Origin: Rufibacter ruber
GTDB lineage: Bacteria; Bacteroidota; Bacteroidia; Cytophagales; Hymenobacteraceae
Direction of reading: 5' to 3'
NCBI RefSeq assembly: GCF_001647275.1
Contig: NZ_LRMM01000023.1
Coordinates: 1 to 64,000, forward strand
Length of the DNA stretch: 64,000 nt
Position numbers and translations under genes: made by a program. Of the stretch, positions 3,396-62,138 are shown piece by piece. Under the pieces are notes generated by a model, which was not told the origin of the DNA, did no database searches, and was given only the letters and a program-made list of their open reading frames with translations. Each line of letters opens with the position of its first letter. Position 1 is the first letter of the stretch.

Positions 3396-3558
3396 CGAAG
3401 CTGTTTAGAGTTTTGATAGAAAGGCATTTGGTCAAGATTCTAGTTTCTGTTTTCGGCCTGTTTTTTGAAAAATAAGCCGAAAACAGAAACTACAGGCTGG
3501 TGAAAAACCTTACCCGGCAGCCTTTGCCTGCCGGTTTCAAAAACTCTAAACAGCTTCG
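3396..3558. mobile_element. 163-bp MITE-like element with terminal inverted repeats
   Basis: The left end CGAAGCTGTTTAGAGTTTTG (3396-3415) is repeated inverted at 3538-3558 with one extra base. Between them lies one copy of the window-wide palindrome family (3441-3492) and no coding capacity. It interrupts the SDR pseudogene at a point where homologues are continuous, which is direct evidence that it moved in. No clear target duplication is visible. Fragments like its left end recur at 12145 and 32347. Confidence 0.7.
3441..3492. repeat. Dispersed palindrome copy inside the MITE
   Basis: Seventeen-base arms, TAGTTTCTGTTTTCGGC and its exact complement, surround an 18-base loop. It occupies the middle of the 163-bp element in the SDR pseudogene and has one of the longest perfect stems among the copies in this window. 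Confidence 0.85.
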
Positions 3559-4015
3559 GACATTACAAGCCTACGGGCAATCTAAAACTGCCAGTAATTT
3601 ATTCGCCCTGGAATTAGACAATAGAGCCAAAACATACAAGGCAAGAGCTTATTCAGTACACCCTGGTTCTTTTGGGGGCAAAGAGTTAGGCAGAGAAGCG
3701 CCATTGGAACTGTTTCAGCAAATGGGGTTCTGTGATGCAGAAGGCAATATGCTGCCCGAAGTTCTGGCCTCGCTCAAAACCATTCCGCAAGGGGCCGCCA
3801 CCACTGTCTGGGCTGCCACCAGCCCCTTGCTCAACAGCCTGCAGGTGTGTACTGTGGAGATGGAGACATTCCCGAATTGGCTTCTGACACCGCTATTTCT
3901 GCGGGTGTAAAAGCACACTCACTGGATGAGGCCACGGCAAAGCAACTGTGCCATTGGAGCGAAAAAATGACAGGTGTAGCATCCAATATTTAATACTTAA
4001 ATAGCACGTACTAAA

Positions 4016-4172
4016 ATGACAAGTTTAAAAGAGAAAGTTGCCGTCATTACGGACGGCAACAGCGGCATTGGCAAAAGCATTGACTAAACAAGGAGCGGAA
4101 GTAGCTATTACGGGCAGGAGAAAAGAAGCCGTTGAAGAGGCCGCCAACTCATTAGGCGTAACAGGTGTTTGA
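4016..4172 (+). pseudogene. SDR N-terminal fragment
   Basis: The frame begins MTSLKEKVAVITDGNSGIGK, an SDR Rossmann start with Asp where the second Gly of TGG is usual. It hits a stop after SID. Shifting one base at the A-run restores TKQGAEVAITGRRKEAVEEA, the next SDR helix and strand, and the match ends at 4172. Only about 50 of about 250 residues survive. It is the fourth SDR-related sequence in a row. Confidence 0.8.
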
Positions 4173-4394
4173 AACCTAATCCCCTCGCAGGTTATGATTA
4201 GGGTTAACGCTAGCAGGAAGATATTTTAGAAGGTGGCAGCTTTGAGAAGCCAATAAAGGGACAGAAAAATAAAGCTTTTTATAAGTAGGAAAGCGTCAAT
4301 ACAGGTCATTGTTCCGCTTACCAGAAGCAGTTATCTCACCAGAAGCCAAAACCCACCCTCGCACGTACATACCAGAAACCAACTGCCTCTGTAC

Positions 4395-5075
4395 ATGCGT
4401 ACTGTACGTTACAAGATTCTCCGCCGCATTTACCTGCTCCTCTTCCTCCTGATTGATTTCCCTGTCCTTGGGTTTGCCCAGCAGACAAGCCAAACCTTAG
4501 AGATTCTATTACAGGCTGGTCCCAGCCATACCTTCTTGCGCGGACGTGAACTTACAGATCAAGCGTCAGGGGATATCAGGCCGGTGGCGGGCCTGGCGTT
4601 GCGGTACCAGTTGAACCGGTATTTTCTGCAAACGGGGCTCCTGTATGAGAACAAAGGGAACAAAGAAGAAAGCAATAACCTAGTTTATGATGAACAAGGC
4701 CATCTGCAGGGAGAGCAGCTGTATACCGTACGCACCCATTACCATTACCTGGTCATGCCCCTGTTCATTGGGAAGAACGTTGGCCAAACCGGCTTTTACG
4801 GCAACGCGGGAGTCTACTTAGCCTACCTTTTCAAACAGCAGGTAAGCGCCTTTGACGAAGATCTGAACCTCACCCCCTACACCGGCAGAATAGATGGCGG
4901 GCTCAGCGCCGGAATTGGTTTTTCAAGAAGTCTTTCCAACACGTGGAGATGGTCAGTGGAAGCGCGGCATAATTGGGGATTGCTGGACACCAACAAAGAA
5001 CCTATCCTGACCGGAGGCACCTTAAAAACCACCTCCACCAATCTGTTGCTGGGCATCAGCTACGCAATTAAATAA
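4395..5075 (+). CDS. Outer-membrane beta-barrel protein, porin-family-like
   Basis: A 226-residue protein with an N-terminal signal sequence (basic MRTVRYKILRR, hydrophobic YLLLFLLIDFPVLG, cleavage near FAQQ). The rest alternates in the way of an eight-strand barrel: ALRYQLNRYFLQTGLLYENKG, HYHYLVMPLFIGKN, GFYGNAGVYLAYLF, SAGIGFSRSL and a final strand LLLGISYAIK. This is the PorT/OMP_b-brl_2 style barrel common in Bacteroidota. The function is unknown. Its TAA stop overlaps the first base pairs of the inverted-repeat element that follows. Confidence 0.75.
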   Translation: MRTVRYKILRRIYLLLFLLIDFPVLGFAQQTSQTLEILLQAGPSHTFLRGRELTDQASGDIRPVAGLALRYQLNRYFLQTGLLYENKGNKEESNNLVYDEQGHLQGEQLYTVRTHYHYLVMPLFIGKNVGQTGFYGNAGVYLAYLFKQQVSAFDEDLNLTPYTGRIDGGLSAGIGFSRSLSNTWRWSVEARHNWGLLDTNKEPILTGGTLKTTSTNLLLGISYAIK

Positions 5076-5223
5076 CTCAAGTTGCAATGGTTACTGCCCT
5101 TCTGTGACAACCCACCCCTACCCCTCCCAAGAGGGGAATCATCTGCAAAAGTCTCAGTAGAAAGCCCCCTCCTTAAAGGGGTAGGTAACGGGTCAACTGC
5201 TTTAATAAATCGCAACTTGAGTT
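5074..5223. mobile_element. 150-bp inverted-repeat element
   Basis: Perfect 12-base ends AACTCAAGTTGC (5074-5085) and GCAACTTGAGTT (5212-5223) enclose a GC-rich centre with two short CCCCTCC/AGGGG hairpins. There is no coding capacity. The left end overlaps the stop codon of the barrel gene. It resembles a MITE but differs in its ends from the element at 3396. Confidence 0.6.
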
Positions 5224-5238
5224 AGATAGAAGAACTTC

Positions 5239-5666
5239 TCACACATGAAGCTCCTCGCGTACCTGCATCAGGAGATGGCCTAGCCTGTTCTGCCCCGTGC
5301 CATCAGCCCCAATCCCCCAGAAGAAGTCATACGGTGACGCCTCGGCCAAAGGCGCAGAGAGCAGAAGCTCCATTAACACGGTATGGGTTTGTAATTTCTT
5401 CCGCACCGCGGAAAGCATACCCTCCTTCCGTACCTCCTCCCAGTCAGTTCTAATGTGAATTTGTCTGGTCTTCCCCAACTCCCTTGCCATTCTGGGAAAG
5501 GCAGCGATTCTGATCTTTTCCTGATACGCTGCATCTCCAAACTTCAGGGTTTGGAAATAATGCTCTTTAAGGGCCACTATTTCCCGTCTAACTCAATGCC
5601 AAAATCAGCTAAGTTTAGAGAACGCCCAAAGGCGGTATCTTTGGCGAAGAAGGAAATGCTTTCCAT
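5239..5666 (-). pseudogene. Decayed NADAR (YbiA-like) gene
   Basis: The downstream part is a clear NADAR domain: KEHYFQTLKF, MARELGKTR, DWEEVRKEGML, YDFFWGIGADGTGQNRLGHLLMQVREEL. An upstream ATG at 5666 opens MESISFFAKDTAFG and reaches ELDGK, then meets TAG where the family has Trp, followed by a one-base frameshift before KEHYFQ. Intact family members are N-glycosidases of riboflavin-pathway intermediates or ADP-ribose-like compounds. The remaining open frame, 112 residues, lacks the N-terminal part of the fold, so activity is unlikely. Confidence 0.75.
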
Positions 5667-5682
5667 AAAGAAAATCTAAAGG

Positions 5683-5722
5683 CTGTTTTGGGGCTGTTTT
5701 TCTGAAAACAGCCCCAAAACAG
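5683..5722. repeat. Dispersed palindrome copy
   Basis: A perfect stem CTGTTTTGGGGCTGTTTT with a short CTG loop, lying immediately before the stop codon end of the epimerase-like gene (one base from it). It could end transcription of either neighbour. Confidence 0.85.
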
Positions 5723-5723
5723 A

Positions 5724-6611
5724 TCAACCTATGGTAATGGTATAGGCGGCTTCAAAGGTTTCACCGGAACCAACAGACTGCATGCCTTCCTTCTCACTCA
5801 GCTCTACGGGGCCACCGGCGCTGCCAGCCACGCCGTACCACGGCTCCAGGCACAGGAAAGGCGCGCCGCGGCGTTTGGTCCAGATACCCAGAAAGGGGAA
5901 GCCGGCAAAGTCCATCTGCACAAAATGCGGGTGCTGGTCACATTTGAGGGTCACGCGCTCAGACTTGAAGTTCTTGAACACCAGGGCGTCTTTCTCAAAA
6001 TGGTCATAGTTCAGCGGCAGAAGGGCCATGTTGTCCAGCACCGGTTCAGTGGCGCCGCTCAACAAGCCGGTGCCTTCTTCCAGCAGGTACCGGGAAAGGG
6101 TTTCGGGTTGGGAGAACTCCAGGTAGTAGTCTTCAAAAGCGCCGTTTTCTGTGATAGGCACGTGGAACGCAGGGTGCGCGCCAATGGAGAAAAGCATCTC
6201 CCCTTCGCCGGCATGCCGTACCTGCCACTTCACCTCCAGCGTTTGGTCTTGCAGCATGTACACCACCCTTAGCGTAAACCGGAACGGATATACTTTCAAG
6301 GTTTCCTCAGAAGCTTTGAGCTCATACACCAGCTGGTTCTCTGTCTGCCCCACCAGCGCAAATACATTATCCCGCCCAAAACCGTGTTGCGGCAGGCTGT
6401 ACGTTTGGCCCTGGTGCAGGAACTGGTTCTGCGGCAACCGTCCCACAATGGGGAACAGGATGGGCGAATGGCGGTTCCAGAACTCCGGGTCTGCCTGCCA
6501 GAGATATTCCCGGTGGCTGTCTTTTTTTACCAGGGAGCAGAGTTCGGCCCCGTGGCTTTTCACGCCTACGCGTACCAGATCGTTTTCAAGAAAAGTGGTT
6601 TCCAAGGTCAA
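5724..6611 (-). CDS. Aldose 1-epimerase (mutarotase) family protein
   Basis: A 295-residue protein of the galactose-mutarotase-like fold, LacX/YeaD branch. Visible features are HGAELCSLVKKD near the start, HSPILFPIVGRLP, QHGFGRD with a conserved His, GAHPAFHVP with the second catalytic-type His, and CLEPWYGVA with the candidate catalytic Glu near residue 255. It probably interconverts the anomers of a hexose or a phosphosugar in the cytoplasm; there is no signal sequence. The only plausible start in frame is a TTG at 6611. It forms no operon with its neighbours. Confidence 0.85.
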   Translation of the reverse strand: MTLETTFLENDLVRVGVKSHGAELCSLVKKDSHREYLWQADPEFWNRHSPILFPIVGRLPQNQFLHQGQTYSLPQHGFGRDNVFALVGQTENQLVYELKASEETLKVYPFRFTLRVVYMLQDQTLEVKWQVRHAGEGEMLFSIGAHPAFHVPITENGAFEDYYLEFSQPETLSRYLLEEGTGLLSGATEPVLDNMALLPLNYDHFEKDALVFKNFKSERVTLKCDQHPHFVQMDFAGFPFLGIWTKRRGAPFLCLEPWYGVAGSAGGPVELSEKEGMQSVGSGETFEAAYTITIG

Positions 6612-6704
6612 GTTATGGTTTGATGAGGGGTAGAAGGCCGTAAGAACAGGCGTTTCTATTTGTTTACGGGTTTGATCAACACATGGGTTTAAGGTATGCG
6701 GCGC

Positions 6705-7232: not shown

Positions 7233-7254
7233 GAAAGCGGGATAAAGGGTAAAT

Positions 7255-7294
7255 CTGTTATCGGCCTGTTTTTCAGAAAACAGCCCAGAAACAG
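7255..7294. repeat. Dispersed palindrome copy
   Basis: Arms CTGTTATCGGCCTGTTTTT and AAAACAGCCCAGAAACAG pair with several mismatches. It sits in the 5' flank of the NadR-like gene, between it and the DUF2490 gene. Confidence 0.65.
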
Positions 7295-7379
7295 AAAATT
7301 CTCAGCGGTGAAAATAGCCAAAAGAATCTGGTCCTGCCAAAGAAACCGCGGGCAGGCCCTTCTCAAAAAAGAGGCTTCG

Positions 7380-9189: not shown

Positions 9190-9196
9190 AGATCAA

Positions 9197-9244: not shown

Positions 9245-9338
9245 CCCTTAAAAAGGCAGGCGCACAAAAATAGAAGCAATTCAACAGGTTGCGGCAGTTT
9301 CCTTTCGGCTGCGCCGAAAAATGCTGTAATTTTACCGC

Positions 9339-11143: not shown

Positions 11144-11146
11144 TTT

Positions 11147-27547: not shown

Positions 27548-28309
27548 ATGCGGCAGACAGCAGTACCTTCGCCAGCCACCCTTGAACTTTCAACCCATAG
27601 ACTCTGGCTACGGGCCTATTCACCCGAGATGGCCCTCCCTTTCTGGCGGCTCTTACAGGAAAACCGGAGCCGGCTGCTCACAGATTTCCCAGACCGCACC
27701 GCGGCGGTGCAGACCCTGGAAGACGCCGCCCACCGCATCAGGACCATGACCTACCAGCGCCGGGCGGGCGACCTCTACAGTCTGGGCATTTTCAGGAAAG
27801 ACACTGAAGATTACATTGGCGACGTTACCCTCAGGCGGCTGGCCCGCGGCAAACTGTACGCAGAAGTGGGCTACTACCTTTCCGGCGCCGCCGAAGGCCA
27901 GGGATATGCCACCGAGGCCCTGAAAGCCGTACTCAAATACGCGTTTCAGGTGTTGAGAATGGAAAGCGTGAGCCTGCGGTGCGCCAAAGCCAACACCCGC
28001 AGCCAGAAAGTGGCCGAGCGCACCGGCTTCACCCTCACCAGAACCTACACCCCCACCGTCACAGACAGCGGCGGGGAACCGCGGGAGTTGTGCTGCTACA
28101 GTTTTCAGCGGAATGATTTTGCCCTGCAGCTGCTCTGGCGTACCTGTTTTCTGGAAAACAGGCCAAAAACGCCAGAGCCTGTTTCAATGGATCTCTCAGG
28201 CTGCAAAACGCTCATAAAAAGAAACTGCCTGCACACTTTTCCCGCAGTGCTGCTACGCGGCTCAAAAACTGCCTCTGCAGAACCGTTTGCTGGTACTTTT
28301 AGCCGGTAA
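27548..28309 (+). CDS. GNAT acetyltransferase with a palindrome-derived C-terminal tail
   Basis: A 253-residue protein. Residues 15 to about 190 form a RimJ/RimL-type GNAT domain: LSTHRLWLRAYSPEMALPFW, YIGDVTLRRLARGKLYAEVGYYL and GQGYATEALKAVLKYAF, the acetyl-CoA loop. SVSLRCAKANTRSQKVAERTGF follows and the domain ends near LCCYSFQRNDF. The ordinary family length is about 180-195. The last 60 residues (from LLWRTCFLENRPK) are read through a dispersed palindrome copy and have no family similarity, so an original stop was probably lost or displaced. The acceptor, protein or antibiotic, is unknown. Confidence 0.85.
   Translation: MRQTAVPSPATLELSTHRLWLRAYSPEMALPFWRLLQENRSRLLTDFPDRTAAVQTLEDAAHRIRTMTYQRRAGDLYSLGIFRKDTEDYIGDVTLRRLARGKLYAEVGYYLSGAAEGQGYATEALKAVLKYAFQVLRMESVSLRCAKANTRSQKVAERTGFTLTRTYTPTVTDSGGEPRELCCYSFQRNDFALQLLWRTCFLENRPKTPEPVSMDLSGCKTLIKRNCLHTFPAVLLRGSKTASAEPFAGTFSR
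28132..28178. repeat. Dispersed palindrome copy inside the GNAT coding region
   Basis: GCTCTGGCGT pairs with ACGCCAGAGC, and inside them CCTGTTTTCTGGAAAACAGG is a perfect palindrome. It encodes LWRTCFLENRPKTPE of the acetyltransferase tail. Confidence 0.8.
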
Positions 28310-28330: not shown

Positions 28331-29500
28331 TTAGCGCTTTTTGAGCCGCGCCAGGAAGAAGTCTGAGTTAAAGTTGAGGTGCAGGCTGTTGGAGAACTCC
28401 AGGGCGGGGTTGTCCAGGTCATAGTACGGCTCCAGCCGCAGGGTGAGCATGAGCCCTTCCATGAGTTTGATGTCATGCATGAGCCGCAGAATCAGCAGCT
28501 GGCGGGTCTTGTCTGTGTAGCCGGGGCTTTTGAAGTTGGTAGACACTGACTGGAACAGCTTGCCGCCCAGTTCTGCATAATAGCCGCTCCCGCGCCAGTA
28601 GCTCAGCATCACGTTCTGGTACTTGGTGTCTACGCCCGCATTGAGGTAAATGCCCCCCCCTTTCGTGAACGGCAGGTTCTTCTCATTGGAGAAATCCTTC
28701 CAGCCCACCACGTACGGCTGAAAATGCAGCGCCTTGAGTACTCTCCTGTTATAGGTCCTCCTGAGCACCAATCCGGCCGCCACGTTCAGCAACGTCACCA
28801 GCGGCAGTTCTGTGTCATCAATCTGGCCGCCGCGGTGCTGGGCGGTGAACTGGAGCGGAAGCCCGATGTAAGTTTCTGTTTCCGGCTTATTTTCTGGAAA
28901 ATCAAGCGAAACGGGCGTTTCATACAGCCGCAGCTCAGCAGAAGCGCCCCCGGCAATTTCCTCCTGAAACGGGTCCATGCGCCTGATGTAGCGCTGCCAG
29001 TCCATCCAGGCGTCCAGCTTCACCCCGGGTTTGTCCAGCAGGAGCTGGAGGCCGTTCTCCAGCCGGTTGGTGATCACGCGCTCAAAATCATACAGCGGCT
29101 CAATATACCCGTGGTTCACGTTGCCCTCCAGATTACCAAACAACAGCGCTTTGCCGTCTTTCTCATACCGGATGGTGAACGTGGGCTGCACCATTGAATA
29201 CTTGTTCGTCCCGAAGTCTTTCTGCACCTGCACCCCTACGTCAATGCGCACGTTAGGGCTGGCAAAGTAGATGAGGCGCGGGTTCAGGTGATAGCCAAAC
29301 AGCGTATAGCCTTCGGCGATGTCATTGAAGTACTCATTGTTTTTCTGGTACCCCAAGGCGTTGAGGCCCAGCTGCAGCTCACCCGTCTGGTCTGGTTTCA
29401 CCGGAAACCGCTGCTCCAGCGCCTTGTTGTTTAACTGCGCCAAGGCGCTCTGCCCGGCAAAAGCGGCTCCTACGGCCATGAAAAGCCATTTTTTTAGCAT
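28331..29500 (-). CDS. Outer-membrane barrel protein of unknown function
   Basis: A 389-residue secreted protein with signal peptide MLKKWLFMAVGAAFAGQSALAQ split after AQ. Alternating aromatic strands fill the rest (HLNPRLIYFASPNVRIDVGV, FTIRYEKDGKALLFG, NVMLSYWRGSGYYAELG, GLMLTLRLEPYYDL) and the protein ends SLHLNFNSDFFLARLKKR, a barrel-like terminus. It was not matched to a named family. An upstream in-frame codon at 29560 adds 20 residues that would hide the signal peptide, so 29500 is chosen. A palindrome-like segment is embedded in frame at 28873-28920. It converges with the GNAT gene. Confidence 0.72.
   Translation of the reverse strand: MLKKWLFMAVGAAFAGQSALAQLNNKALEQRFPVKPDQTGELQLGLNALGYQKNNEYFNDIAEGYTLFGYHLNPRLIYFASPNVRIDVGVQVQKDFGTNKYSMVQPTFTIRYEKDGKALLFGNLEGNVNHGYIEPLYDFERVITNRLENGLQLLLDKPGVKLDAWMDWQRYIRRMDPFQEEIAGGASAELRLYETPVSLDFPENKPETETYIGLPLQFTAQHRGGQIDDTELPLVTLLNVAAGLVLRRTYNRRVLKALHFQPYVVGWKDFSNEKNLPFTKGGGIYLNAGVDTKYQNVMLSYWRGSGYYAELGGKLFQSVSTNFKSPGYTDKTRQLLILRLMHDIKLMEGLMLTLRLEPYYDLDNPALEFSNSLHLNFNSDFFLARLKKR
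28873..28920. repeat. Possible worn palindrome copy inside the barrel gene
   Basis: TTTCTGTTTCCGGCTTATTTTC followed by GGAAAATCAAGCGAAACGGGCG resembles the family on the plus strand and keeps frame in the minus-strand gene, encoding PVSLDFPENKPETETY. Pairing is imperfect, so this is tentative. Confidence 0.4.
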
Positions 29501-29989
29501 ATGATTCTTAATGTCACCCCTGGTAACGCAACAGCTGCAAACAAGTTGAGCGCACGGCATCTGCTCCCTGAGGCCGCCGCACCAAACCGAAAGATACTTA
29601 AAAGAAGGAAAAAAGGGAGGGCGCCCCCTTACAAACTTCCCCTCCCCTTCTGGCCAGGCCGTTTCTGGCTTACTTTTTCTAAAACAGGGCTAAAACAGAA
29701 TGCCTGCCCCGGCAGGTATGCCGCGCTTACCCCTGAAAATTCTCAGCCCGGGTGTAACTAATCTCTCCCCTGCTTTGTTTCAGAAAGAGGGGAAACCGGC
29801 CGCCCACAGCCAGACTGTACCAAGCACGTGCTGCTCAGCCCGTTAAAATTTTACTATCACCAATAGCAAACAGCTAAAAATAAAACTAAAAAAAGTAGCA
29901 TATCTTGGCACAAATCCGGTACTTTGGGTGTTTCATTTATACACCTCCAGACCCTGTCTTAGAAGCAGCTGAGACGCCGCGGCAAGCGT
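29501..29989. other. Promoter gap between the barrel gene and recA
   Basis: No gene. It holds one palindrome copy (29659-29698) and an AT-rich stretch at 29845-29945 that is probably the recA promoter. TACTTTGG near 29919 is close to the -7 consensus. No SOS-type operator could be identified by eye. Confidence 0.4.
29659..29698. repeat. Dispersed palindrome copy
   Basis: CCGTTTCTGGCTTACTTTTT pairs imperfectly with CTAAAACAGGGCTAAAACAG. Located midway between the divergent barrel gene and recA. Confidence 0.68.
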
Positions 29990-30049
29990 TTGCAGATTGG
30001 CTCAGGAAGTAGTAATTTAGACCTAAATTTAAGCAAAGAAAACACAGAC

Positions 30050-31138
30050 ATGAGTGTAAACACCGAAAAACTGAAAGCGCTTCAACTCACCATTGACAAG
30101 CTGGACAAAGCCTATGGCAAAGGCACGGTCATGAAGCTGAGCGACAACCAAGTGGTGGACGTAGGGGCCATCTCTACCGGTTCCCTCGGGCTAGACATCG
30201 CCTTGGGAATTGGGGGTCTTCCGCGTGGCAGGGTGGTAGAAATCTACGGCCCGGAGTCTTCCGGTAAAACCACGCTCACTATGCATGCCATTGCTGAGGC
30301 GCAGAAACAAGGCGGTATTGCCGCTTTCATTGACGCCGAGCATGCTTTTGATAAAACCTACGCTGAGAAACTCGGCATTGACACAGAAAACCTCTTGATA
30401 GCCCAGCCAGACAACGGCGAGCAAGCCCTGGAGATTGCGGACCACCTGATCAGCTCTGGCGCGATTGATATCATTGTGATTGACTCAGTGGCCGCTCTGG
30501 TGCCTAAAGGCGAACTGGAAGGCGACATGGGGGACAGCAAAATGGGGCTTCAGGCCCGTTTGATGTCACAGGCCCTGCGTAAGCTGACCGGTACCATCAA
30601 CAAAACCAACTGCTTGTGTATCTTCATCAACCAGTTGCGGGAGAAGATTGGCGTCATGTTCGGGAACCCGGAAACCACTACCGGTGGTAACGCCCTTAAG
30701 TTCTACGCCTCCGTACGTCTGGACATCCGCCGCATTGGGCAGATCAAAGAGGGGGCTGATAACATTACCGGTAACCGCACCAAGGTGAAGGTGGTGAAAA
30801 ACAAAGTGGCGCCTCCGTTCAAAGTGGTGGAGTTTGACATCATGTACGGCGAGGGTATCTCCAAAGTAGGCGAAATCCTTGACCTGGGCGTGGAGTTGAA
30901 CATTATCCAGAAATCTGGTTCCTGGTTCTCCTACAACGGTGACCGCTTAGGCCAGGGCCGTGACGCGGTAAAACAGCTGCTGCTGGACAACGAAGAGCTC
31001 ATGCAGGACATTGAGACGAAAATCAGAGCTCTGGTAAAAGGCGAGCCAGACAAGGTGCGGCCGCCCTGGAAGACAATGAATAACAGAAAAAATAAGACAA
31101 AAACGGCACCTTTCAGGGTGCCGTTTTTGTTTAGGTGA
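30050..31138 (+). CDS. recA: Recombinase RecA, C terminus frameshifted
   Basis: RecA catalyses ATP-dependent strand exchange and activates LexA-type cleavage. Start 30050 gives [20 protein letters not shown]. Walker [11 protein letters not shown] is at residues 67-76, [29 protein letters not shown] and the [32 protein letters not shown] block follow. The core is intact. After GEPDKV the frame reads [12 protein letters not shown] and runs through the transcription terminator to 31138, giving 362 residues. One base added in the GGTGCGG run would restore AAALEDNE and a TAA at 31081-31083, the expected acidic RecA tail. This is a real frameshift or a sequence error. Confidence 0.96.
31101..31131 (+). 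terminator. Rho-independent terminator of recA
   Basis: AACGGCACC pairs with GGTGCCGTT around TTTCAG and is followed by TTTGTTT. The annotated recA frame translates through it, which supports the view that the true stop is earlier. Confidence 0.9.
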
Positions 31139-32073: not shown

Positions 32074-32119
32074 AACCAGTGAGGGCCGCCCAAGTTGACT
32101 TGGGCGGCCCTCACTGGTT
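32074..32119 (+). terminator. 21-bp perfect hairpin after the DUF3108 gene
   Basis: AACCAGTGAGGGCCGCCCAA and its complement enclose TTGA, 30 bases after the stop. The right arm ends in GGTTT and runs directly into a palindrome copy. There is little T-tract, yet the stem is the most stable in the window. Confidence 0.6.
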
Positions 32120-36932: not shown

Positions 36933-37382
36933 ATGGACCACTTAAGTTATAAGACGCTATCAGTTAATAAGGCGGCCGCTAATAAAGGCTGGGTAGTGAT
37001 AGACGCCGGAGACTCAACCCTTGGCCGTGTGGCCTCTCAGATCGCGATGATCCTTCGCGGCAAAAACAAACCTTCTTTCACGCCTAACGCAGACTGCGGA
37101 GATAACGTGGTTGTGATCAATGCGGATAAAGTTCGTATGACTGGCAAGAAGTGGGATAAGAAAACCTTTGTAACCCACACCGGTTACCCAGGCGGCCAGC
37201 GCACCTTCACTCCCCGTGAGTTGAAAGCCAAATCTTCTACGCTGCTGGTAGAGCGTGCGGTGAAAGGGATGTTGCCCAAGTCCCGTCTGGGCCGTGAGCA
37301 ATTCCGCAACCTGTTTGTGTACCCAGGTGCAGAGCACCCACATGCGGCACAACAGCCTGTTCAAGTAAAACTTACAAAATAA
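36933..37382 (+). CDS. rplM: 50S ribosomal protein L13
   Basis: A 149-residue ribosomal protein L13, an early-assembling large-subunit protein. Visible family blocks are WVVIDAGDSTLGRVASQIAM (residues about 21-40), NADKVRMTGKKWDKK, GYPGGQRTFTPRELKAKS and RAVKGMLPKSRLGREQFRNL, then VYPGAEHPHAAQQP. Length is normal. It leads the operon with rpsI 14 bases downstream, the order conserved in nearly all bacteria. A strong promoter lies upstream. Confidence 0.99.
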   Translation: MDHLSYKTLSVNKAAANKGWVVIDAGDSTLGRVASQIAMILRGKNKPSFTPNADCGDNVVVINADKVRMTGKKWDKKTFVTHTGYPGGQRTFTPRELKAKSSTLLVERAVKGMLPKSRLGREQFRNLFVYPGAEHPHAAQQPVQVKLTK

Positions 37383-37396
37383 TCTAGACATATTTA

Positions 37397-37783
37397 ATGG
37401 AAGTTCTCAATACATCTGGTAGAAGAAAAACCTCGGTGGCGCGCATTTACATGACGTCAGGGCAAGGGAATATCACTATTAACGATAGAGATATTAAGGA
37501 ATACTTCCCTAGTGAAGTGTTGCAAACCATTGTGCAGCAGCCATTGGTGCTGATTGACGGGGTGGGCAAATACGACATTAAGGCGAATATCAAAGGCGGT
37601 GGCGTTGCCGGTCAGGCAGAGGCCCTTCGTCTGGCAATTACCAAGGCATTGGTAGAAGAAAACGCTGAGACCCGTCCGGCCCTGAAAAAAGAAGGTTTCT
37701 TAACGCGTGACCCACGTATGGTGGAGCGTAAGAAATTCGGTAAGCGCAAAGCCCGTCGTTCGTTCCAGTTCTCTAAACGTTAA
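37397..37783 (+). CDS. rpsI: 30S ribosomal protein S9
   Basis: A 128-residue ribosomal protein S9. It contains TSGRRKTSVARIYMTSGQGN near the N terminus and the basic C-terminal tail FLTRDPRMVERKKFGKRKAR followed by RSFQFSKR, which reaches into the ribosomal P site. KGGGVAGQAEALRLAITKAL is the conserved core. It sits between rplM (14-base gap) and rpsB (24-base gap), and is probably transcribed together with both. Confidence 0.99.
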   Translation: MEVLNTSGRRKTSVARIYMTSGQGNITINDRDIKEYFPSEVLQTIVQQPLVLIDGVGKYDIKANIKGGGVAGQAEALRLAITKALVEENAETRPALKKEGFLTRDPRMVERKKFGKRKARRSFQFSKR

Positions 37784-37807
37784 TATTTCATCAGCTGTAT
37801 CAATATC

Positions 37808-38569
37808 ATGGCTAATACCACATATAAAGATTTACTGGATGCCGGTGTACACTTTGGTCACCTTACCAGAAAATGGGATCCTAAAATGGCTCCTTACATT
37901 TTCATGGAGAAAAACGGCATTCACATCATTGACCTGAACAAAACCCTTGTGTCTTTAGATGAGGCTACTGCTGCTATCAAGCAGATTGCCAAGTCTGGCC
38001 GCAAGATCATGTTTGTGGCTACCAAGAAACAAGCGCAGGACATAGTGGCAGAAGAGGCGAAACGCCTGAAAATGCCTTATGTGACTGACCGTTGGTTAGG
38101 TGGTATGCTCACCAACTTCCAGACTGTTCGTAAGTCATTGAAGAAAATGTCTACCATTGACAAAATGGTGAAAGAAAACACCGCGTATGCCGCCATGGCG
38201 AAACGTGAGCGTTTGATGCTGTCTCGTGAGCGCGAGAAACTGGAGCGTGTGTTGGGTGGTATTGCTGACCTGTCCCGTCTCCCGGCAGCTTTGTTTGTAG
38301 TGGACGTGAAGCGTGAGTCTATTGCTATCAAAGAAGCCCATAAACTGAACCTGCCCGTATTCGCGATTGTAGACACCAACTCTAACCCAGAGCTGGTTGA
38401 TTTCCCAATCCCGGCCAATGATGACGCTTCTAAGTCTATCGCCCTGATCACTTCTTTGATTGGCAAAGCCATTGAAGAAGGTTTGTCTGAGCGTAAAGTA
38501 GACAAAGAAGATTCAGACAGAAAACGTGCCGAGGAAGAAGGCATTGCCGAGAAAGTAGAGGCTGAATAA
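37808..38569 (+). CDS. rpsB: 30S ribosomal protein S2
   Basis: A 253-residue ribosomal protein S2. Conserved blocks are [69 protein letters not shown] and [18 protein letters not shown]. The C-terminal tail ([16 protein letters not shown]...) is acidic and variable, as usual. rplM-rpsI-rpsB followed by tsf is a standard arrangement in Bacteroidota. A terminator after the stop separates it from tsf. Confidence 0.99.
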
Positions 38570-38598
38570 GCTCCTAACCTCATAAGATCACTGTCAAA

Positions 38599-38646
38599 GA
38601 AACTGAACATTAGGAAGCCTGGCCACTAATGTTCAGTTTCTTTTTG
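38599..38646 (+). terminator. Terminator of the rplM-rpsI-rpsB operon
   Basis: GAAACTGAACATTAG pairs with CTAATGTTCAGTTTC around a 12-base loop and is followed by TTTTT. It stands 30 bases past rpsB, so tsf probably has its own promoter or depends on read-through. Confidence 0.85.
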
Positions 38647-38823
38647 ATAACAGCCTCTTTAAAGATTGTTCCTGCAAGCCAAGGCAACCAGGTTCTGCAG
38701 AAGCAGTTCCTGACAGAGCCCATGGCAGCAGGAAAGACAAAGATTTAAAGGCTTAAAAGGCGTTGCGAGAAAGCAACCCCACCCGCATAAAACTTTTTAT
38801 CCGTACTTCTTAATAAAAGAAAA

Positions 38824-39657
38824 ATGGCTATTACAGCACAAGATGTAAACAGACTTCGCCAAGAGACTGGCGCTGGTATGATGGACTGCAAAAAAGCCCT
38901 GACTGAGGCCAACGGCGACTTTGAAGCAGCCAAAGATATTCTGCGTAAGCAAGGTCAGAAAATTGCCAGCAAGCGCGCTGACAACGCTACTTCTGAAGGA
39001 GCTGTTTTAACGCAAGTAAACGCTGAAGGTACTGTAGGTAAAGTAATCGCGTTAGCCTGCGAGACTGAGCCGGTATCTAAAGTAGAAGATTTCAAAAACC
39101 TGGCGCAAGCGGTATTGAGCGCTGCGGTTTCTACCAACGCTGCCACTAAAGAAGAACTGTTGGCTACGCCACAGACAGACGGCCGTTCTCTGCAAGACCA
39201 CATCACTGACCTGATGGGTAAAATTGGTGAGAAAATTGATGTAGTGTCTTACGAGACTGTTTCTGCTGAGAAAGTTGTTGCTTACAACCACTCAAACGGT
39301 AAACTGGGTGTGTTGGTAGGTTTAACCAACACCGGCGGTAAAGAAGTAACTGAAGTAGGCAAAGACGTAGCCATGCAAATTGCTGCTATGCGCCCTATCG
39401 CGGTTGACAAAGACGGAGTTGACGCCGCTACTATTGAACGCGAAATTGAGATTGGGAAAGAGCAGGCTCGCCAGGAAGGCAAACCAGAGGAAATGCTGGA
39501 GAAAATTGCCCAAGGCAAACTGAACAAGTTCTACAAAGAAAGCACGTTGTTGAACCAGGAGTTCGTGAAAGACCCATCTGTAACCATTGCTAAATTGTTA
39601 GATAACACTAACAAAGGCATGACCGTGACTGAGTTCAAGCGTGTTGCCATTGGTTAA
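38824..39657 (+). CDS. tsf: Translation elongation factor Ts
   Basis: A 277-residue elongation factor Ts, the nucleotide-exchange factor for EF-Tu. The N-terminal UBA-like region is VNRLRQETGAGMMDCKKALTEA with DILRKQGQKIASKRA next, and the core has VLVGLTNTGG, DVAMQIAAMRPIAVDKD, EEMLEKIAQGKLNKFY and LLNQEFVKDPSVTIAKLL. Length and motifs are those of a normal EF-Ts. It follows rpsB after a 254-base gap that contains a terminator. Confidence 0.99.
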   Translation: MAITAQDVNRLRQETGAGMMDCKKALTEANGDFEAAKDILRKQGQKIASKRADNATSEGAVLTQVNAEGTVGKVIALACETEPVSKVEDFKNLAQAVLSAAVSTNAATKEELLATPQTDGRSLQDHITDLMGKIGEKIDVVSYETVSAEKVVAYNHSNGKLGVLVGLTNTGGKEVTEVGKDVAMQIAAMRPIAVDKDGVDAATIEREIEIGKEQARQEGKPEEMLEKIAQGKLNKFYKESTLLNQEFVKDPSVTIAKLLDNTNKGMTVTEFKRVAIG

Positions 39658-51971: not shown

Positions 51972-51980
51972 TGTTTTAAC

Positions 51981-57082: not shown

Positions 57083-57176
57083 AGCGTTTGTTTGTATTTG
57101 GTGTAAGGTTGTGTCAGGTCAGCAATAGCTGATGCAGGTTTCATTGGTCAGCTGAAATGCCGCCTAAACTTTTTTT

Positions 57177-57216
57177 CCGTTTTCGGCCTGTTTTCCGGAA
57201 AACGGGCCAAAAACGG
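57177..57216. repeat. Dispersed palindrome copy
   Basis: CCGTTTTCGGCCTGTTTTCC pairs with GGAAAACGGGCCAAAAACGG with two mismatches. It splits the minus-strand operon between the CBM9-like and transporter genes, within a 182-base gap. Confidence 0.85.
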
Positions 57217-57264
57217 GTTGTTTTTCTATTTCTTCGGCGCTGCCGATGCACAATTAATGCTCTC

Positions 57265-57915: not shown

Positions 57916-57922
57916 AGGAATA

Positions 57923-59068
57923 TCAGTTAGCAGTGATAGGAATAGCCTGTACTTCTTGCACTACTTTCTCAATAATATCTTCTAACTGGGGCTGGCACGC
58001 TTCCAGCTGGTGTACCAGTTGGAACTGCGCCCGGGCGCGCTGCAGGTTATGTCCGGCAAAATGGGTTTTGTAGTAGTTATCCCCGTCTATATAATCGGTT
58101 AGGAACCGTAGCCCCATAATGTAAGGCAATAGCAGCGCCCCCGGCACCAAAGACGCTATTTCCTGTTCAGACAAGGCGGCACCGGTCTCTTCCAGAAACC
58201 CGCGGGCAAACCCTTCAAACAGGGCCAAATCCACATGAATCTTGCTGATATCTGCTTCATCTTCCGGAGCCGTGTTGACGGTAGTTCTAATGGCATCACC
58301 AAAGTCATAGGCCACATATCCTGGCATGACGGTGTCCAGGTCAATGACGCACTGGGCCTTGCCTTCCGGGTTAAGGAGCACATTGTTGAATTTGGTGTCA
58401 TTGTGCGTGACCCTAAGCGGCAAAACCCCTTGCTGCCCCAGGCGGTAGATGGTGCTCATGGCCTCTATGCGGTCTTGCACAAAGGCAATTTCAGGGGTTA
58501 CCTCTTTCACCCGTCCCACCGGATCTGCCTCTACCGCACGCTTGAACAGGTTGAACCGGCTGACTACATGATGGAAGTTTGGGATAGTGTCATGCAACCG
58601 CTCCACTGGCAGGTCAGCCAAGAGCGCCTGGAACTTGCCAAACGCTCTTCCGCCCTCATACGCTTGCCGGGAGGAGGTCACTATATCATAGCTGGTGGTA
58701 TTCTCCAGAAAGAGGTACATGCGCCAGTAATTGCCTTCCTGGTCCTGGTAAAACCACGCGCCTGCGTTGGTAGGCACCAAGGTGAGTACTTCTTTGCTGG
58801 GTTCTGCCCCCGCCACGGCTCCCAGCTTGTGCCTTAGATGCGTGGTCACCAATTGGATATTCTCCATGAGGGCAGGCACGTTTTTGAACACGTGGTGGTT
58901 CACGCGCTGCAACAAGTAGTCTGGAGACGCCGCCGCTGTATTTTGCACATGGTACGTGTCATGGATATGCCCCGACCCATGCGCGGTGACGGCTGCCACT
59001 GCCCCTTCTAATTGAAACTGTGCAAGAATTTGTTTCAGCTCACTGCCTGCCTCTGCTTTCTCTACCAT
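57923..59068 (-). CDS. nahK: N-acetylhexosamine 1-kinase-like phosphotransferase
   Basis: A 381-residue protein of the aminoglycoside phosphotransferase fold. The ATP-site and catalytic loop read RVTHNDTKFNNVLLNPEG and CVIDLDTVMPGYVAYDFGDAIRT, the pattern recalled for NahK of bifidobacteria. Upstream parts include HIHDTYHVQ, DYLLQRVNHHVFKNVPALME and YWRMYLFLENTTSYD. NahK phosphorylates GlcNAc or GalNAc at the anomeric carbon. Here it is tightly linked to a nucleotidyltransferase (1-base gap) and a CBM9-like gene (7 bases), suggesting conversion of N-acetylhexosamine to a nucleotide sugar. Exact sugar preference is inference. Confidence 0.85.
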   Translation of the reverse strand: MVEKAEAGSELKQILAQFQLEGAVAAVTAHGSGHIHDTYHVQNTAAASPDYLLQRVNHHVFKNVPALMENIQLVTTHLRHKLGAVAGAEPSKEVLTLVPTNAGAWFYQDQEGNYWRMYLFLENTTSYDIVTSSRQAYEGGRAFGKFQALLADLPVERLHDTIPNFHHVVSRFNLFKRAVEADPVGRVKEVTPEIAFVQDRIEAMSTIYRLGQQGVLPLRVTHNDTKFNNVLLNPEGKAQCVIDLDTVMPGYVAYDFGDAIRTTVNTAPEDEADISKIHVDLALFEGFARGFLEETGAALSEQEIASLVPGALLLPYIMGLRFLTDYIDGDNYYKTHFAGHNLQRARAQFQLVHQLEACQPQLEDIIEKVVQEVQAIPITAN

Positions 59069-59069
59069 G

Positions 59070-59990
59070 TTATTCTACTGTTTCTAAGCTTCTGTTCCAT
59101 AGGTTTTTGGGGTACACCCCCTGGGCCACCAATTGCCCCAGCGATTTGGTGGCCACAGGCTTGTCTGCCGGGTAGGTCACCCCGAACCATTTTTCAGGGG
59201 TAGGCAACACGTTCACCTTCACCACTCCGGCTTTCACCAAGCGGTCTACCACCGAGGGCAGGTAAAACTCCGCCTTCGGCTGATGGCCCTGCTCGTTGAT
59301 AAACTCTTTCAGATACTGCTCAAAATACGGCAGCAAAGACGGCGAGAACCCCATCAGGTTCATGGACACGATTTGGTCCGGGGCCAAAGGGATTTCCTCC
59401 CCATCTGCCCTAATAGCCACAATATGCTGTTCTTTCCGCTCAATGTGGGTTTGCTCGGTAATGCTGCGCAGAGTTCCGTCTGCGTCTACCTCACAAATAC
59501 CCCGTGACACCGCCCCGTGCTCAGACAGCGTATTGGCCAGCTGGTAACCCACCAGGCCGCAGGGCTGCCCGCTCCGCAGAAAATCAGCTATGATTTGAAA
59601 GGACTCAGCCCCGTAAAAGTCGTCTCCGTTAATGACTGCAAAAGGCTCCTGCAATTTCTCCCTGGCTACCCACACCGCATGGGCCGTTCCCCAGGGTTTC
59701 ACGCGGTTCTCGGGCACTGTTAAACCGTCTGGTAGCACCGCTAACTCCTGCAGCACATATTCCACGGCAATCTTATCGCTGAACTTGTTCAGCATAACCG
59801 CCCTGAATTCCTCTTCAATAGACTTTCTGATAATGAAAATCACCTTCCCGAAGCCAGCCCTGACAGCATCATAAATTGAATAGTCTATTATAGTCTCACC
59901 ATTAGGCCCAAAGCCATCTATCTGCTTTAGACTACCGTACCGACTTGCCATGCCAGCCGCCAATACAACCAGCGTTGGTTTTCTCTCCAT
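59070..59990 (-). CDS. Sugar-1-phosphate nucleotidyltransferase
   Basis: A 306-residue Rossmann-like nucleotidyltransferase. The signature LVVLAAGMASRYGSLKQIDG (residues about 6-25) binds the NTP phosphates, AVINGDDFYGAESFQIIADF holds the metal-binding Asp, and WGTAHAVWVAREKL, SMNLMGFSPSLLPYFEQYL and EFYLPSVVDRLV follow. The family makes UDP- or dTDP-sugars from sugar 1-phosphates. Start 59990 is used because the upstream extension begins in the promoter area. As first gene of the operon, one base before the kinase start, it probably activates the sugar 1-phosphate the kinase makes. Confidence 0.88.
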   Translation of the reverse strand: MERKPTLVVLAAGMASRYGSLKQIDGFGPNGETIIDYSIYDAVRAGFGKVIFIIRKSIEEEFRAVMLNKFSDKIAVEYVLQELAVLPDGLTVPENRVKPWGTAHAVWVAREKLQEPFAVINGDDFYGAESFQIIADFLRSGQPCGLVGYQLANTLSEHGAVSRGICEVDADGTLRSITEQTHIERKEQHIVAIRADGEEIPLAPDQIVSMNLMGFSPSLLPYFEQYLKEFINEQGHQPKAEFYLPSVVDRLVKAGVVKVNVLPTPEKWFGVTYPADKPVATKSLGQLVAQGVYPKNLWNRSLETVE

Positions 59991-60287
59991 AGGAAGATCC
60001 TGATTAGTGTAATATCTTATTCTATGTCTAATTAGCCTTTGTGCCCATAGCCAGCTCTTAAAATTGATGCCTCTTGACTTCAATCATACATTTAAAGGCC
60101 AGCCTCCTGATAAGTACTTTCCTGCTAAATATCTGGGAACAAAAGCCTTTTTTCTTTCAAAGGCCTTAGATCAACCCACTTTAAACAACTGTTTCGGTTT
60201 ACAAACCTTAGAAACTCAGGCTAATTTCATGTTTCTGAGATAAACATAGAAACTAACATTAAGATTTGCAAAGATTAAGTGCAAAAA

Positions 60288-60330
60288 TGTGTTCGAACAC
60301 ACAAGATATAATTAAAGTGTTTACGAACAC
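60288..60330. promoter_or_regulatory. Two LacI-like operators ahead of the minus-strand PUL operon
   Basis: TGTGTTCGAACACA (60288-60301) is a perfect palindrome centred on CG, and GTGTTTACGAACAC (60317-60330) has the same GTGTT/AACAC arms with a four-base centre. The centres are 29 bases apart. The arms resemble the sites ahead of susC. Confidence 0.6.
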
Positions 60331-61153
60331 AACATATAATTCATCAGAATCACATATAATATCTATTTTGCATTTTTTCATTGCAATCCAACTATCAATG
60401 CCCAATATACCTCTAGGTCAGGAGAATAGTAACTATTGATCTTCTGTCATAAAAACAGCTTACCCTGAAAGCGGAATAGCTAACCCAGGAATTAAACTGC
60501 ACCCAATGCCTTCATATAAAATCGACCAGAAGGGCAAATAGCCTTTGTTTTGAAAACTATTAATTATCACCCCAAAGCACGTATGGTGTTATTGACTGAT
60601 GTCCACAGTAACACAAACAAGTATCCCCCTTATATCAAGAGCATATAACATGTCTATTGGGCTACAAACGGGCATCAAAAGGATCTTCTCTACCGGTTGC
60701 CCCATTGCTTTCTCCTGCAAAAGCAAAAAGTAAACAAGCTTTAAAGAAAGCGCCCAGAAGAAGATGATCAATTTAGAACACCTACAAGAACAGCATGCAT
60801 TGGGGTATGGCTTTGTCTAGACAAGTAGGGATATGCCCTTAAGTAGGATATAAGGATTGGCTACTTTCTCCAATATAGCATCAGGGGTTGCAGAGAAATA
60901 TAAGTAAAGCTGGCCCAAATCATACCGTTGCTCTCCTGCTAGAAGGGAAGAAAACTTTGTTTGAAGAATGACACGCCTCTGTCAAAGTCAGCGACAGACA
61001 CAGTAGCAGTTTACCTGCCCGCATGCGATAGGGTACATTTCACTCAAAACCAAATCTTGCCTATTACAGTACCACCTACATTATGCACCAACGGCAGCAT
61101 TAGTGCGCGGCTTTGGCTGAAAAGGGCGGGAAAAATGTGATGGGAGGTAACTA
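60331..61153. other. Gene-free AT-rich stretch
   Basis: The only open frames are short and unlike genes, including one of 60 codons on the minus strand at 60589-60771. No main-family palindrome occurs here, which is unusual for a gap this long in this window. A role beyond the upstream control region of the PUL operon is not apparent. Confidence 0.5.
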
Positions 61154-61594
61154 TTATGCCTGACGGTGCACTTTGGTCACCAACTCTACCACGGTGTCTT
61201 CCATCCATTTCACGGCATCCTGCTCGGTCAAAAAGGCCTGGTACCGCACCTCAGGGCACGCGTCTAAGGCAGATGAAAGGTCTTTGTTTTCCTGCAAACG
61301 CTGCATTTGCCGGGGGGTAAGTAAAAAGGCGACCAGCAGTTGGGGGGCAATCAGTTGAAGGGCTTTGGGATAGAATTCCTGGCTCAGCCACTCACTTTCC
61401 TTTTGGGTGAGCTCTCCTTTTGACCTATAATCAAACAGCCAGCAGGTGGCGGCATTTTCAGTGGCCACTTGCAGCATAGACAGACAGTTGATCTTGAACT
61501 CTGTGAACGTAACAGGCTGCTGCCACCGGATGATGACCGTCTGCATATCCGCCCGATAGGAGATCTTACTATGTTTGCTTTGTCCTATCTTCAT
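61154..61594 (-). CDS. Unknown 146-residue protein, possible SpoIIAA/STAS-like fold
   Basis: A soluble protein with no clear domain. It opens with a strand-like segment (SYRADMQTVIIRWQQPVTFT), then a helix (EFKINCLSMLQVA), a strand with ATCWLFDYRSKGELTQKES, a helix before QLLVAFLLTPRQMQRLQE, and a last AFLTEQDAVKWMEDTVVELV. This beta-helix-beta order and the final 'EQDAVKWM' resemble the SpoIIAA-like proteins common in Cytophagales. The resemblance is weak and no phosphorylation motif is visible. It is monocistronic. Confidence 0.6.
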   Translation of the reverse strand: MKIGQSKHSKISYRADMQTVIIRWQQPVTFTEFKINCLSMLQVATENAATCWLFDYRSKGELTQKESEWLSQEFYPKALQLIAPQLLVAFLLTPRQMQRLQENKDLSSALDACPEVRYQAFLTEQDAVKWMEDTVVELVTKVHRQA

Positions 61595-61752
61595 GAGTGA
61601 GGGGTTTGAGCTAGGAGGTGGTAATCAAAAAAGTACTCATTTGTCGGTAGTCTGTCTTGAACTGAAAGTAGATCAATAAACACTTATAAACAAGTTTCCC
61701 ACAGGCTTTTCCCCATTAAAGTTCCAAAATATAGTATTTATACGGAATAAGG

Positions 61753-62001
61753 CTAGTATTCATTCCGCCGTCTGGTCTCGTTCCAGTTGGTGCGCATGGC
61801 CAGAAACAGCTCAATACAGCTTTGCAGAAACGCCTCATCAATCCATCTTTTAATCTCCCCGTCGCCCCCGTCTACGTCCATCTCACTCACCTTGTAGGTC
61901 TGTTCAAAGGGACCCAGCTCCAGTTTGAGCAGGTATTTCCCGTTCCAGGCAAAAAGAGTGATCTTGATTTCAGGATGTGGAATATCTGTTACTACACGCA
62001 T
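61753..62001 (-). CDS. Small unknown protein, 82 residues
   Basis: The frame from the ATG at 62001 reads MRVVTDIPHPEIKITLFAWN, YLLKLELGPFEQTYKVSE, a Gly/Asp-rich turn (MDVDGGDGEI) and an amphipathic helix, RWIDEAFLQSCIELFLAMRT. The balance of strands and helix suggests a real small folded protein; similar short reading frames of unknown function occur in Bacteroidota. The upstream ORF extension of 10 residues is less likely. It lies 137 bases downstream of the MutS-like gene and may share its transcript. Confidence 0.6.
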   Translation of the reverse strand: MRVVTDIPHPEIKITLFAWNGKYLLKLELGPFEQTYKVSEMDVDGGDGEIKRWIDEAFLQSCIELFLAMRTNWNETRRRNEY

Positions 62002-62109
62002 TTTACAAAAGTTATTAGAAGTACGAAGCAAAAAAGCCAGGGATTCAAAATCAGGGGTGATTTCTTAGATTTATTCCCCCTCTCAGCAGCACAGGGTATC
62101 TGTTTTACC

Positions 62110-62138
62110 CCTGTTTTGGGAAAAACAAGTCATAAACG
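62110..62138. repeat. Possible worn palindrome copy
   Basis: CCTGTTTTGGGAAAAACAAG then CATAAACG recalls the family core, but the left outer arm is missing. It touches the 3' end of the MutS-like gene. Confidence 0.35.

Follow-up and report, generated by a model that had tools for sequence, protein, structure and literature searches.

The 64,000-nucleotide stretch of Rufibacter ruber analysed here (hereafter the window; positions 1 to 64,000 of contig NZ_LRMM01000023.1) contains many copies of a palindrome, the TGTTTT family, whose 38-base dyad-symmetric core consists of two facing 17-bp half-sites and a 4-bp spacer (half-site consensus in this genome: GTTTTNGGNCTGTTTT). The copies are numerous in Rufibacter and restricted to this genus; they stay at the same places between species, are constrained column by column, keep the length of their spacer, are biased towards the 3' ends of genes, and differ in dialect from species to species. 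Judging from the sequences, we put the chances at about even that the palindromes are old, genus-specific dyad sites that a putative protein would read in double-stranded DNA, and the family looks like a working chromosome-wide signal, not like a transposon that is still moving.

The source is a 5.50-Mb draft genome, Rufibacter in the GTDB sense, from which we analyzed the window and a 400-kb sample taken from two contigs. A covariance model was built from the 24 equal-length copies in the window, which match it by construction, and it found 29 distinct places there, all with E<0.003 on the better strand; an earlier note on this DNA had counted about 30. The family extends well beyond the window: a gapless pair model, which copies with insertions or deletions escape, was retrained on the source genome and found 217 copies in the 400-kb sample with a score threshold of 14 and 209 with a threshold of 30, against 0 in Markov-shuffled DNA. 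Extrapolation from the samples gives ~3,000 copies in the source genome and ~1,650 in species G006 (40 per 100 kb, 4.1 Mb), and we estimate that Rufibacter genomes carry 1,500 to 3,000 copies each. The covariance search, which scores about 150 candidates at most per genome, returned at least 131-150 matches in each of 16 Rufibacter genomes, the source genome among them, and 0 to 4 in 23 others. When the exact 36-bp dyad pattern GTTTNNGGNCTNNTTN6AANNAGNCCNNAAAC was counted genome-wide in 150 genomes, it occurred 699 times in the source genome and 12 to 609 times in 15 other Rufibacter genomes; among 134 genomes of other genera it occurred 0 times in 129 and once in 5, and a reversed control pattern had 0 matches in all 150. 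Species-specific models, used in nine species (the source species, G001, G003, G004, G005, G006, G012, G013 and G014), gave 36-53 copies per 100 kb and none in shuffles, so that the spread of the exact counts may owe more to dialect and decay than to copy number.

Outside the genus, five places were seen in G022, G016 and G032 (the best with E 9e-7 and 40 bits, the others with E 0.002 or worse), five outgroup loci around guaB had no copies, and 400 kb of three other genera showed no similar repeat families. Searches of plasmid and phage collections, with one window copy as query each, gave partial matches only, and Rfam had 0 matches over the gathering score in the window. In the open-access literature searched, a coverage in which subscription papers are mostly missing, the family is undescribed. 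One contig in IMG/VR that is catalogued as viral (L258, 39,252 bases) has one exact palindrome. In the draft, 4 of 9 pattern matches (contigs C2, C129, C132 and C153) are no more than about 90 bases away from the end of their contig, and the assembly may tend to break at the palindromes.

The letters of the site change at very different rates. We aligned three orthologous places, in 15, 16 and 12 species; one of these alignments took 14 of 16 species, two being off by a base, and the place in a convergent gap was aligned in 12 of 16, leaving out the window copy (inside a called open reading frame, ORF), one species without a gene call and two degenerate copies. At these places T12, T13, T23, T24 and their partner A's differ in 0-5% of species pairs, compared with 41-74% for the 12 bases that flank the site on either side. 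A constraint test in sister species, for which copies are picked in the first species by a T-favouring model, gave the same picture: the four T's and their partners changed in 7/500 cases between G006 and G013 (84% identical; noncoding flank rate 0.242) and in 24/506 between G003 and G014 (flank rate 0.229), and columns 16, 17, 21 and 22 came close to the flanks in their rate of change (0.19-0.29). In G006/G013 the invariant letters are conserved to the same degree whatever the type of gap, with changes in 0/64 cases for divergent, 2/96 for convergent and 5/336 for codirectional gaps. Over columns 9-25, the information of a column within G006 predicts its rate between orthologs (Spearman -0.96). 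Information that predicts substitution rate is the pattern expected of a protein-binding site.

The geometry of the site is conserved as well. The spacer is 4 bases long in 218/226 half-site pairs of the source genome and in 222/228 of G006, and its letters are free (change rate 0.28-0.30). Insertions and deletions numbered 9/2046 in the core and 103/3015 in the flanks. The TT steps (TT/AA) in each half-site are 11 bp apart, about one helical turn.

Gene contexts were taken from our own simple gene caller, which misses genes (coding fraction 0.69-0.79), and the gene-context counts are therefore approximate. That the copies are concentrated between genes, as the earlier note had held, was borne out by 238 of the 245 copies in the window and sample (464 kb), which lie outside called genes. 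Among gaps of at least 45 bp in the source genome, a copy is present in 41/42 convergent, 111/182 codirectional and 18/42 divergent ones (convergent versus divergent, Fisher P 2e-8), and gaps of 120-200 bp alone gave 10/10, 19/33 and 2/13, respectively. The bias is weaker in G006 (29/36, 83/160 and 17/35). Neighbouring copies are spaced by a median of 1346 bp in the source genome and 1602 bp in G006, only 10/223 and 1/207 copies lie within 120 bp of a neighbour, and closely spaced inverted pairs, like those of REPIN (doublets of repetitive extragenic palindromes, REPs) or bacterial interspersed mosaic elements (BIMEs), were not the rule in either genome. Single half-sites are also rare: 16 of 462 strong arms fell outside palindrome matches, and several of these are palindromes with another spacing.

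Most copies stay where they are between species. In 220 kb of synteny, 73/79 testable copies of G006 are at the same place in G013, so insertion differences between related genomes, as a REP mobilised by a REP-associated tyrosine transposase (RAYT) would leave, are not the pattern of this pair; for five copies of G006 and two of G003 no position could be assigned in the other genome of the pair. In the guaB region one place is occupied in 15/16 genomes, 35-41 nt past the same stop codon, a second in 16/16, and the convergent gap holds a copy in the 12 aligned species. The G006 segments without a partner in G013 are poorer in copies, with 3 in 18.4 kb where the rest has 41 per 100 kb; in G003 such segments show no difference (4 copies in 7.5 kb, and 49 per 100 kb in the rest). 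One palindrome, at L060:11605-12465 (contig C89 of the source genome, about 151600-152470), is split by an AT-rich stretch of ~0.8 kb that contains small ORFs, and AAAAC stands on both sides, resembling a 5-bp target duplication; no transposase was noticed on reading this DNA, for which no library search was made. The half-sites as ends of a larger element were rejected, since this is the only separated pair in 464 kb.

At the columns that are not invariant, the preferred letters differ between species. Column 21 is C in 86/86 half-sites of G012, whereas the other eight samples have G there most often; in G004, A14 is found in 82/112 half-sites and G15 in 81%, and A14 amounts to 0-14% in the other eight. 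The dialects are also seen at shared places, where A14 occurs in 12/14 half-sites of G004 and in 0 to 2 each in other species, and C21 in 8/8 half-sites of G012 and also in 8/14 of G004. For G004 and G012, copies at different places of one genome are more alike (0.725 and 0.776) than copies at one place in different species (0.580 and 0.574), and so it is for G006 (0.795 against 0.649). Source copies show no such difference (0.651 against 0.657), and in G005 it is reversed (0.650 against 0.702). The A14 state of G004 is uncorrelated between the two arms (0.54 alike against 0.59 shuffled, 56 copies), which argues against overwriting of whole palindromes and for half-sites that change singly.

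A recognised double-stranded site would explain the dyad symmetry, the invariant TT/AA steps with their helical phasing and the fixed spacer of free letters, and likewise the indifference to pairing at most columns, the indifference to gene context and the dialects that go by half-site. The family would have spread before the Rufibacter species separated, and the copies would since have mostly stayed in place, each of them maintained by selection. The double-stranded site would be bound on one helix face by a protein, probably as a dimer or larger assembly, which would make contact there with the TT/AA steps one turn (11 bp) apart in each half. The bound site may mark and insulate the ends of transcription units between convergent genes and behind other 3' ends, either by anchoring DNA topology at points where positive supercoils run into each other, as with gyrase at the REPs of E. 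coli, or by blocking readthrough from both directions. We infer this function from location, because nearly every convergent gap of the source genome and many other 3' ends have a copy; the protein, its mode of binding and the insulation are likewise inferred. In the full version, unit ends are marked chromosome-wide, roughly every 2 kb, by a dyad operator of 38 bp through a dedicated architectural or transcription-blocking protein with which the half-site dialects co-evolve; we consider it somewhat less probable than the protein-read site itself, a little short of even.

In the window, a palindrome is present at all seven coordinates quoted by the earlier note. The four copies that it had called perfect (5683, 41523, 51922 and 54204) each match in all 17 core pairs, the GTTTC in the left arm of the 51922 copy does match GAAAC in the right arm, and none of the 29 copies lies inside the ribosomal block (L13-S9-S2-EF-Ts operon, 36933-39657). 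The places are listed below with their scores by the covariance model; the strand of every one is left unassigned (.).

3448..3485, palindrome core, 64.3 bits
5684..5721, palindrome core with perfect arms, convergent gap, 61.7 bits
7256..7293, palindrome core, 56.1 bits
8417..8454, palindrome core, 58.8 bits
9202..9239, palindrome core, divergent gap, 61.5 bits
12232..12269, palindrome core, left end degenerate, 38.6 bits
16052..16089, palindrome core beyond the canonical guaB terminator, 52.7 bits
19286..19323, palindrome core, the place occupied in 15/16 Rufibacter genomes, 51.3 bits
24189..24226, palindrome core 1 nt past a stop codon, the place occupied in 16/16 genomes, 54.7 bits
24265..24302, palindrome core, 56.1 bits
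24876..24913, palindrome core, convergent gap, 50.8 bits
28134..28171, palindrome core within the called 3' end of ORF 27548-28309, 30.4 bits
28877..28914, degenerate palindrome within ORF 28331-29560, 26.3 bits
29660..29697, palindrome core, divergent gap, 42.5 bits
32115..32152, palindrome core, 49.2 bits
32540..32577, palindrome core, 53 bits
34587..34624, palindrome core directly past a stop codon, 48.4 bits
34680..34717, palindrome core, 56 bits
36717..36754, degenerate palindrome, 20.9 bits
39977..40014, palindrome core, right arm shortened, convergent gap, 46.5 bits
41529..41566, palindrome core with perfect arms that extend outwards by 6 more pairs, its 3' side T-rich with respect to the minus-strand gene, 70.5 bits
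42610..42647, palindrome core, 56.5 bits
42691..42726, palindrome 2 nt shorter, 30.5 bits
50877..50914, palindrome core, 55.7 bits
51928..51965, palindrome core with perfect GTTTC/GAAAC arms, convergent gap, 64.8 bits
52164..52201, palindrome core, convergent gap, 54.4 bits
54205..54242, palindrome core with perfect arms, 64.9 bits
57178..57215, palindrome core, 58.5 bits
62101..62138, palindrome core, 41.2 bits

Two other strong hairpins of the window are outside the family: a 22-bp perfect inverted repeat at 32074-32119 and a terminator-like hairpin at 31095-31132, where ORF 29990-31138 ends.

The earlier note had taken covariation of the two arms as a sign that the hairpin itself is selected or copied. 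This holds for a near-perfect minority of copies and a few columns; most columns pair no better than shuffled arms do, and family-wide hairpin covariation was ruled out as a general trait by column-wise and whole-arm shuffles. Selection does act, mainly on sequence and spacing and only partly on pairing. A first count in the 24 window copies (47 double-change cells against 27.3 shuffled) looked positive before the wider tests, and in the window alone the arms of one copy are 13.43/17 alike against 12.67 shuffled (standard deviation 0.20, n=28). A test for compensation between orthologs in 73 copies of G006 and G013 gave 88 double changes against 77.7 expected. In 242 copies of the source genome, pairing was above column composition at 15/40 (0.45 against 0.29), with weaker signals at 9/46 (z 3.0), 6/49 (z 2.6), 7/48 (z 2.7) and 18/37 (z 2.0); weak signals at the outer columns 5-7 were seen over the source genome and G006. 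A formal z of 9.9 at 24/31 is owed to just two copies (240/242 are T-A), and high values at this pair generally rest on one to few copies. At 18/37, the column behind the GGGGC and GGCC variants, the source copies have GC 65, CG 64, CC 56 and GG 43 times. Perfect 17-bp arms are found in 23/243 source copies against 2.7 expected, and because of this excess the examples of the earlier note are a real minority; such near-perfect copies may have been perfected by template switching or recruited as terminators. The column-pairing, perfect-arm and T-tail counts for G006 include one 20-kb piece (L084) twice, and recounts without the duplicate agree on arm independence and spacer. The strongest covarying pair, 15/40, is without strong sequence preference in the source genome; our guess is that its covariation goes back to copies that were perfect at birth or to template switching.

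Several results weigh against a site that is simply read by a protein. The pair 15/40 covaries in both large samples (z 6.0 in the source genome, 7.7 in G006). Whole arms exceed shuffled ones by 0.3-0.5 of 17 letters in four of the nine species (source 13.06 against 12.77, G001 11.05 against 10.54, G005 13.28 against 12.74, G014 10.63 against 10.22), an effect that is not clear in G003, G004, G006, G012 and G013. In 8/9 species more copies than expected have 16 or 17 matching letters (for example, 40 against 14.5 in the source genome and 31 against 16.2 in G006), the excess being absent in G013 (11 against 11.6). One orthologous set has 8 double changes against 2.7 shuffled, a number reached by 0/500 shuffles, with the compensation at columns 9 and 14-16 and with 19/36 and 21/34 unpaired in 11/15 species; a second set is weaker (13 against 8.6, reached by 37/500 shuffles). 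Because of the T-favouring choice of copies, as many as about half of the changes at the invariant letters may go unseen; the reduction found there, ~17-fold and 5-fold, is larger than that. Only 50/73 testable copies are shared between G003 and G014, scored in both by the source-genome model, and 18 of the 23 unshared ones align to sequence that no longer scores with this model. Only G004 and G012 have strong dialects, and when all species are taken together the same-place likeness (0.633) is about equal to the same-species likeness (0.616). The binding protein of this reading is a predicted one, and pairing is not irrelevant.

The main rival is that the transcribed hairpin forms the 3' ends of mRNAs, as an exonuclease stop after Rho like the REPs of E. 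coli, which are described as mRNA 3'-end stabilisers (PMC13289151), or that it is a bidirectional terminator. We regard this as unlikely, yet as the strongest of the alternatives. The 3' bias, the excess of near-perfect arms and the occasional compensatory changes agree with an RNA element, and so do the tails of certain copies. Of the near-perfect copies of G006, 84% are found no further than 60 nt from a stop, compared with 55% of the others, and 48% against 15% carry a T-rich tail; in the source genome the near-perfect class shows no such difference in tails (12% against 13%). Where the arms extend outwards by at least four more pairs, T-rich tails follow 31% of copies against 10% in the source genome and 59% against 14% in G006. 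A hairpin acting in RNA does not account well for T/A letters that are invariant where freely exchangeable pairs would serve, for arms that are independent at most columns, for a loop of fixed length and variable letters, or for equal constraint in divergent gaps.

The two-way terminator of the earlier note finds no support as a general function; a subset of copies does resemble intrinsic terminators. No T-run follows the core in 112 copies near stops (T peaks at 35-43% at +5/+6). Canonical terminators are found at 27% of 3' ends in the source genome and at 22% in G006, no rarer than in three other genera (24%, 26% and 26%), and a palindrome that replaces canonical terminators was therefore rejected. 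The two are not anticorrelated at one end (56 against 46.2 expected in the source genome, 32 against 28.4 in G006). Where both are present the canonical terminator comes first in 31/56 and 24/32 ends, respectively, and there the palindrome would thus lie outside the transcript. At two or more places in the source sample, the right arm and a downstream inverted copy of it (GAGCCCGGAAACGCARTTTCCGGGCTCTTTT) make a terminator-like hairpin with a T-run; a palindrome arm may have been reused there as half of a terminator.

A molecular drive, in which an uptake-like or copying process favours the sequence and overwrites or enriches it without service to the neighbouring gene, seems to us distinctly improbable. 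It would fit the thousands of copies and the species dialects, as in the uptake sequences of Neisseriaceae (PMC3630211), and also the within-species likeness that exceeds same-place likeness in G004, G012 and G006. Against it stand the paucity of single half-sites, the position of nearly all copies outside genes and the dialect letter of G004, which changes by arm and not by copy. PF00437 (T2SSE/type IV pilus ATPase), moreover, is over the cut-off in 0/16 Rufibacter genomes and in 13/14 control genomes.

The earlier note had proposed REP elements moved by a RAYT-type (Y1) transposase, which we now consider very improbable. RAYT genes are present and the repeats are REP-like in size and location: by Pfam, the source genome has one IS200-like and three RAYT genes, with nine RAYT-model matches in all, some weak or broken. 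The note had suggested looking for a transposase gene flanked by the same palindrome, and no such association was seen at the loci over the cut-off. We examined the 35 RAYT loci of Rufibacter that pass the curated cut-off, two of which have an internal stop, for a palindrome within 450 bp. The source-genome model found TGTTTT palindromes on both sides of 5/35, and with species models where at hand the number was 6/35 (5/19 with such a model, 1/16 without) against 205/873 genes in eight species. Outgroup genomes have RAYTs and lack the family, and G006 has no RAYT match over the cut-off yet 40 copies per 100 kb. The copies are mostly static, and the GTAG/GTGG foot is absent as a family feature (source genome, GTAG 24/486 flanks against 16/486 in the control, GTGG 16 against 16). 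CGTC is slightly enriched at the foot in the source genome (10 against 2 of 486, ~2% of flanks). Of 468 flanks, G006 has GTAG 16 against 12, GTGG 15 against 12 and CGTC 11 against 4, and none of the three is enriched in G004 and G012.

RAYTs L011 and L012 of the source genome are instead flanked by a different palindrome, GGCRCG..CGYGCC (L011:1362-1384 and 1971-1993; L012:1265-1288 and 1963-1986). It has few repeats (8 and 36 strand-wise matches in 464 kb, ~4 and ~18 places), stands on both sides of 5/35 Rufibacter RAYT loci, also accompanies RAYTs L016 and L029 of genera without the TGTTTT family, and is a good candidate for the true RAYT-cognate repeat of these bacteria. RAYT L010, read by eye, lies between GGCGCAAGC-type repeats (GGCGCAAGC(A/G)TCCGCTT-like, 1216-1237 and 1875-1896), and its 3.2-kb locus contains six TGTTTT palindromes. 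Mobilisation by an extinct enzyme or by weaker RAYT relatives may be considered. That the copies are inert relics of an extinct mobile element is the least credible reading of all, since the constrained columns change far less than the flanks of the very same copies, even if the family is old, nearly absent outside the genus and now mostly immobile, and many of its copies in G003/G014 are decayed.

The usual view of REPs and related repeats is that transposition left them behind, and many Rufibacter copies are constrained at fixed places, with the whole set having shifted its dialect together in two of the nine sampled species. If the protein-read site is true, a repeat family would have become a functional layer of the whole genome, with thousands of sites following a recognition rule as it changes; in the full version, its protein would be a bacterial counterpart of insulator or transcription-boundary factors acting at thousands of fixed places.

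Among known systems, the REP of E. coli, a gyrase or topology site, is alike in its placement behind genes, above all between convergent genes, and different in sequence. The uptake sequence of Neisseriaceae is a single short word. The Rufibacter site differs from it as a 38-bp dyad that is almost wholly intergenic, in genomes in which no type IV pilus ATPase was found; alike are the thousands of copies, the dialects and the conserved core letters (PMC3630211). HIP1, the highly iterated palindrome of cyanobacteria, resembles the family as a palindrome repeated many times and kept in one bacterial group; it is 8 bp long, compared with 38 bp here, and linked to methyltransferases. The RAYTs of Rufibacter are like those of subclass 2.6, a Bacteroidetes group with "atypical" palindromes (Quentin 2018, PMC6006769), in size and in a YIHQNP-like motif, and the palindrome seen on both sides of 5/35 of them is of the GGCRCG..CGYGCC type, not of the TGTTTT family. 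The GTAG/CGTC REPs and BIMEs (Di Nocera 2013, PMC3733652) are likewise small high-copy palindromes in convergent and unidirectional gaps near 3' ends; the Rufibacter family differs from them in having no GTAG/GTGG foot and no associated RAYT, in being mostly single and not dimeric, and in being static over species, with dialects and invariant TT/AA steps. The name REP-like given by the earlier note thus suits the number, size and 3'-end location (20-40 bp, many copies, intergenic) and not the foot or the RAYT link, and we file the Rufibacter palindromes as REP-like repeats outside the GTAG/CGTC REPs.

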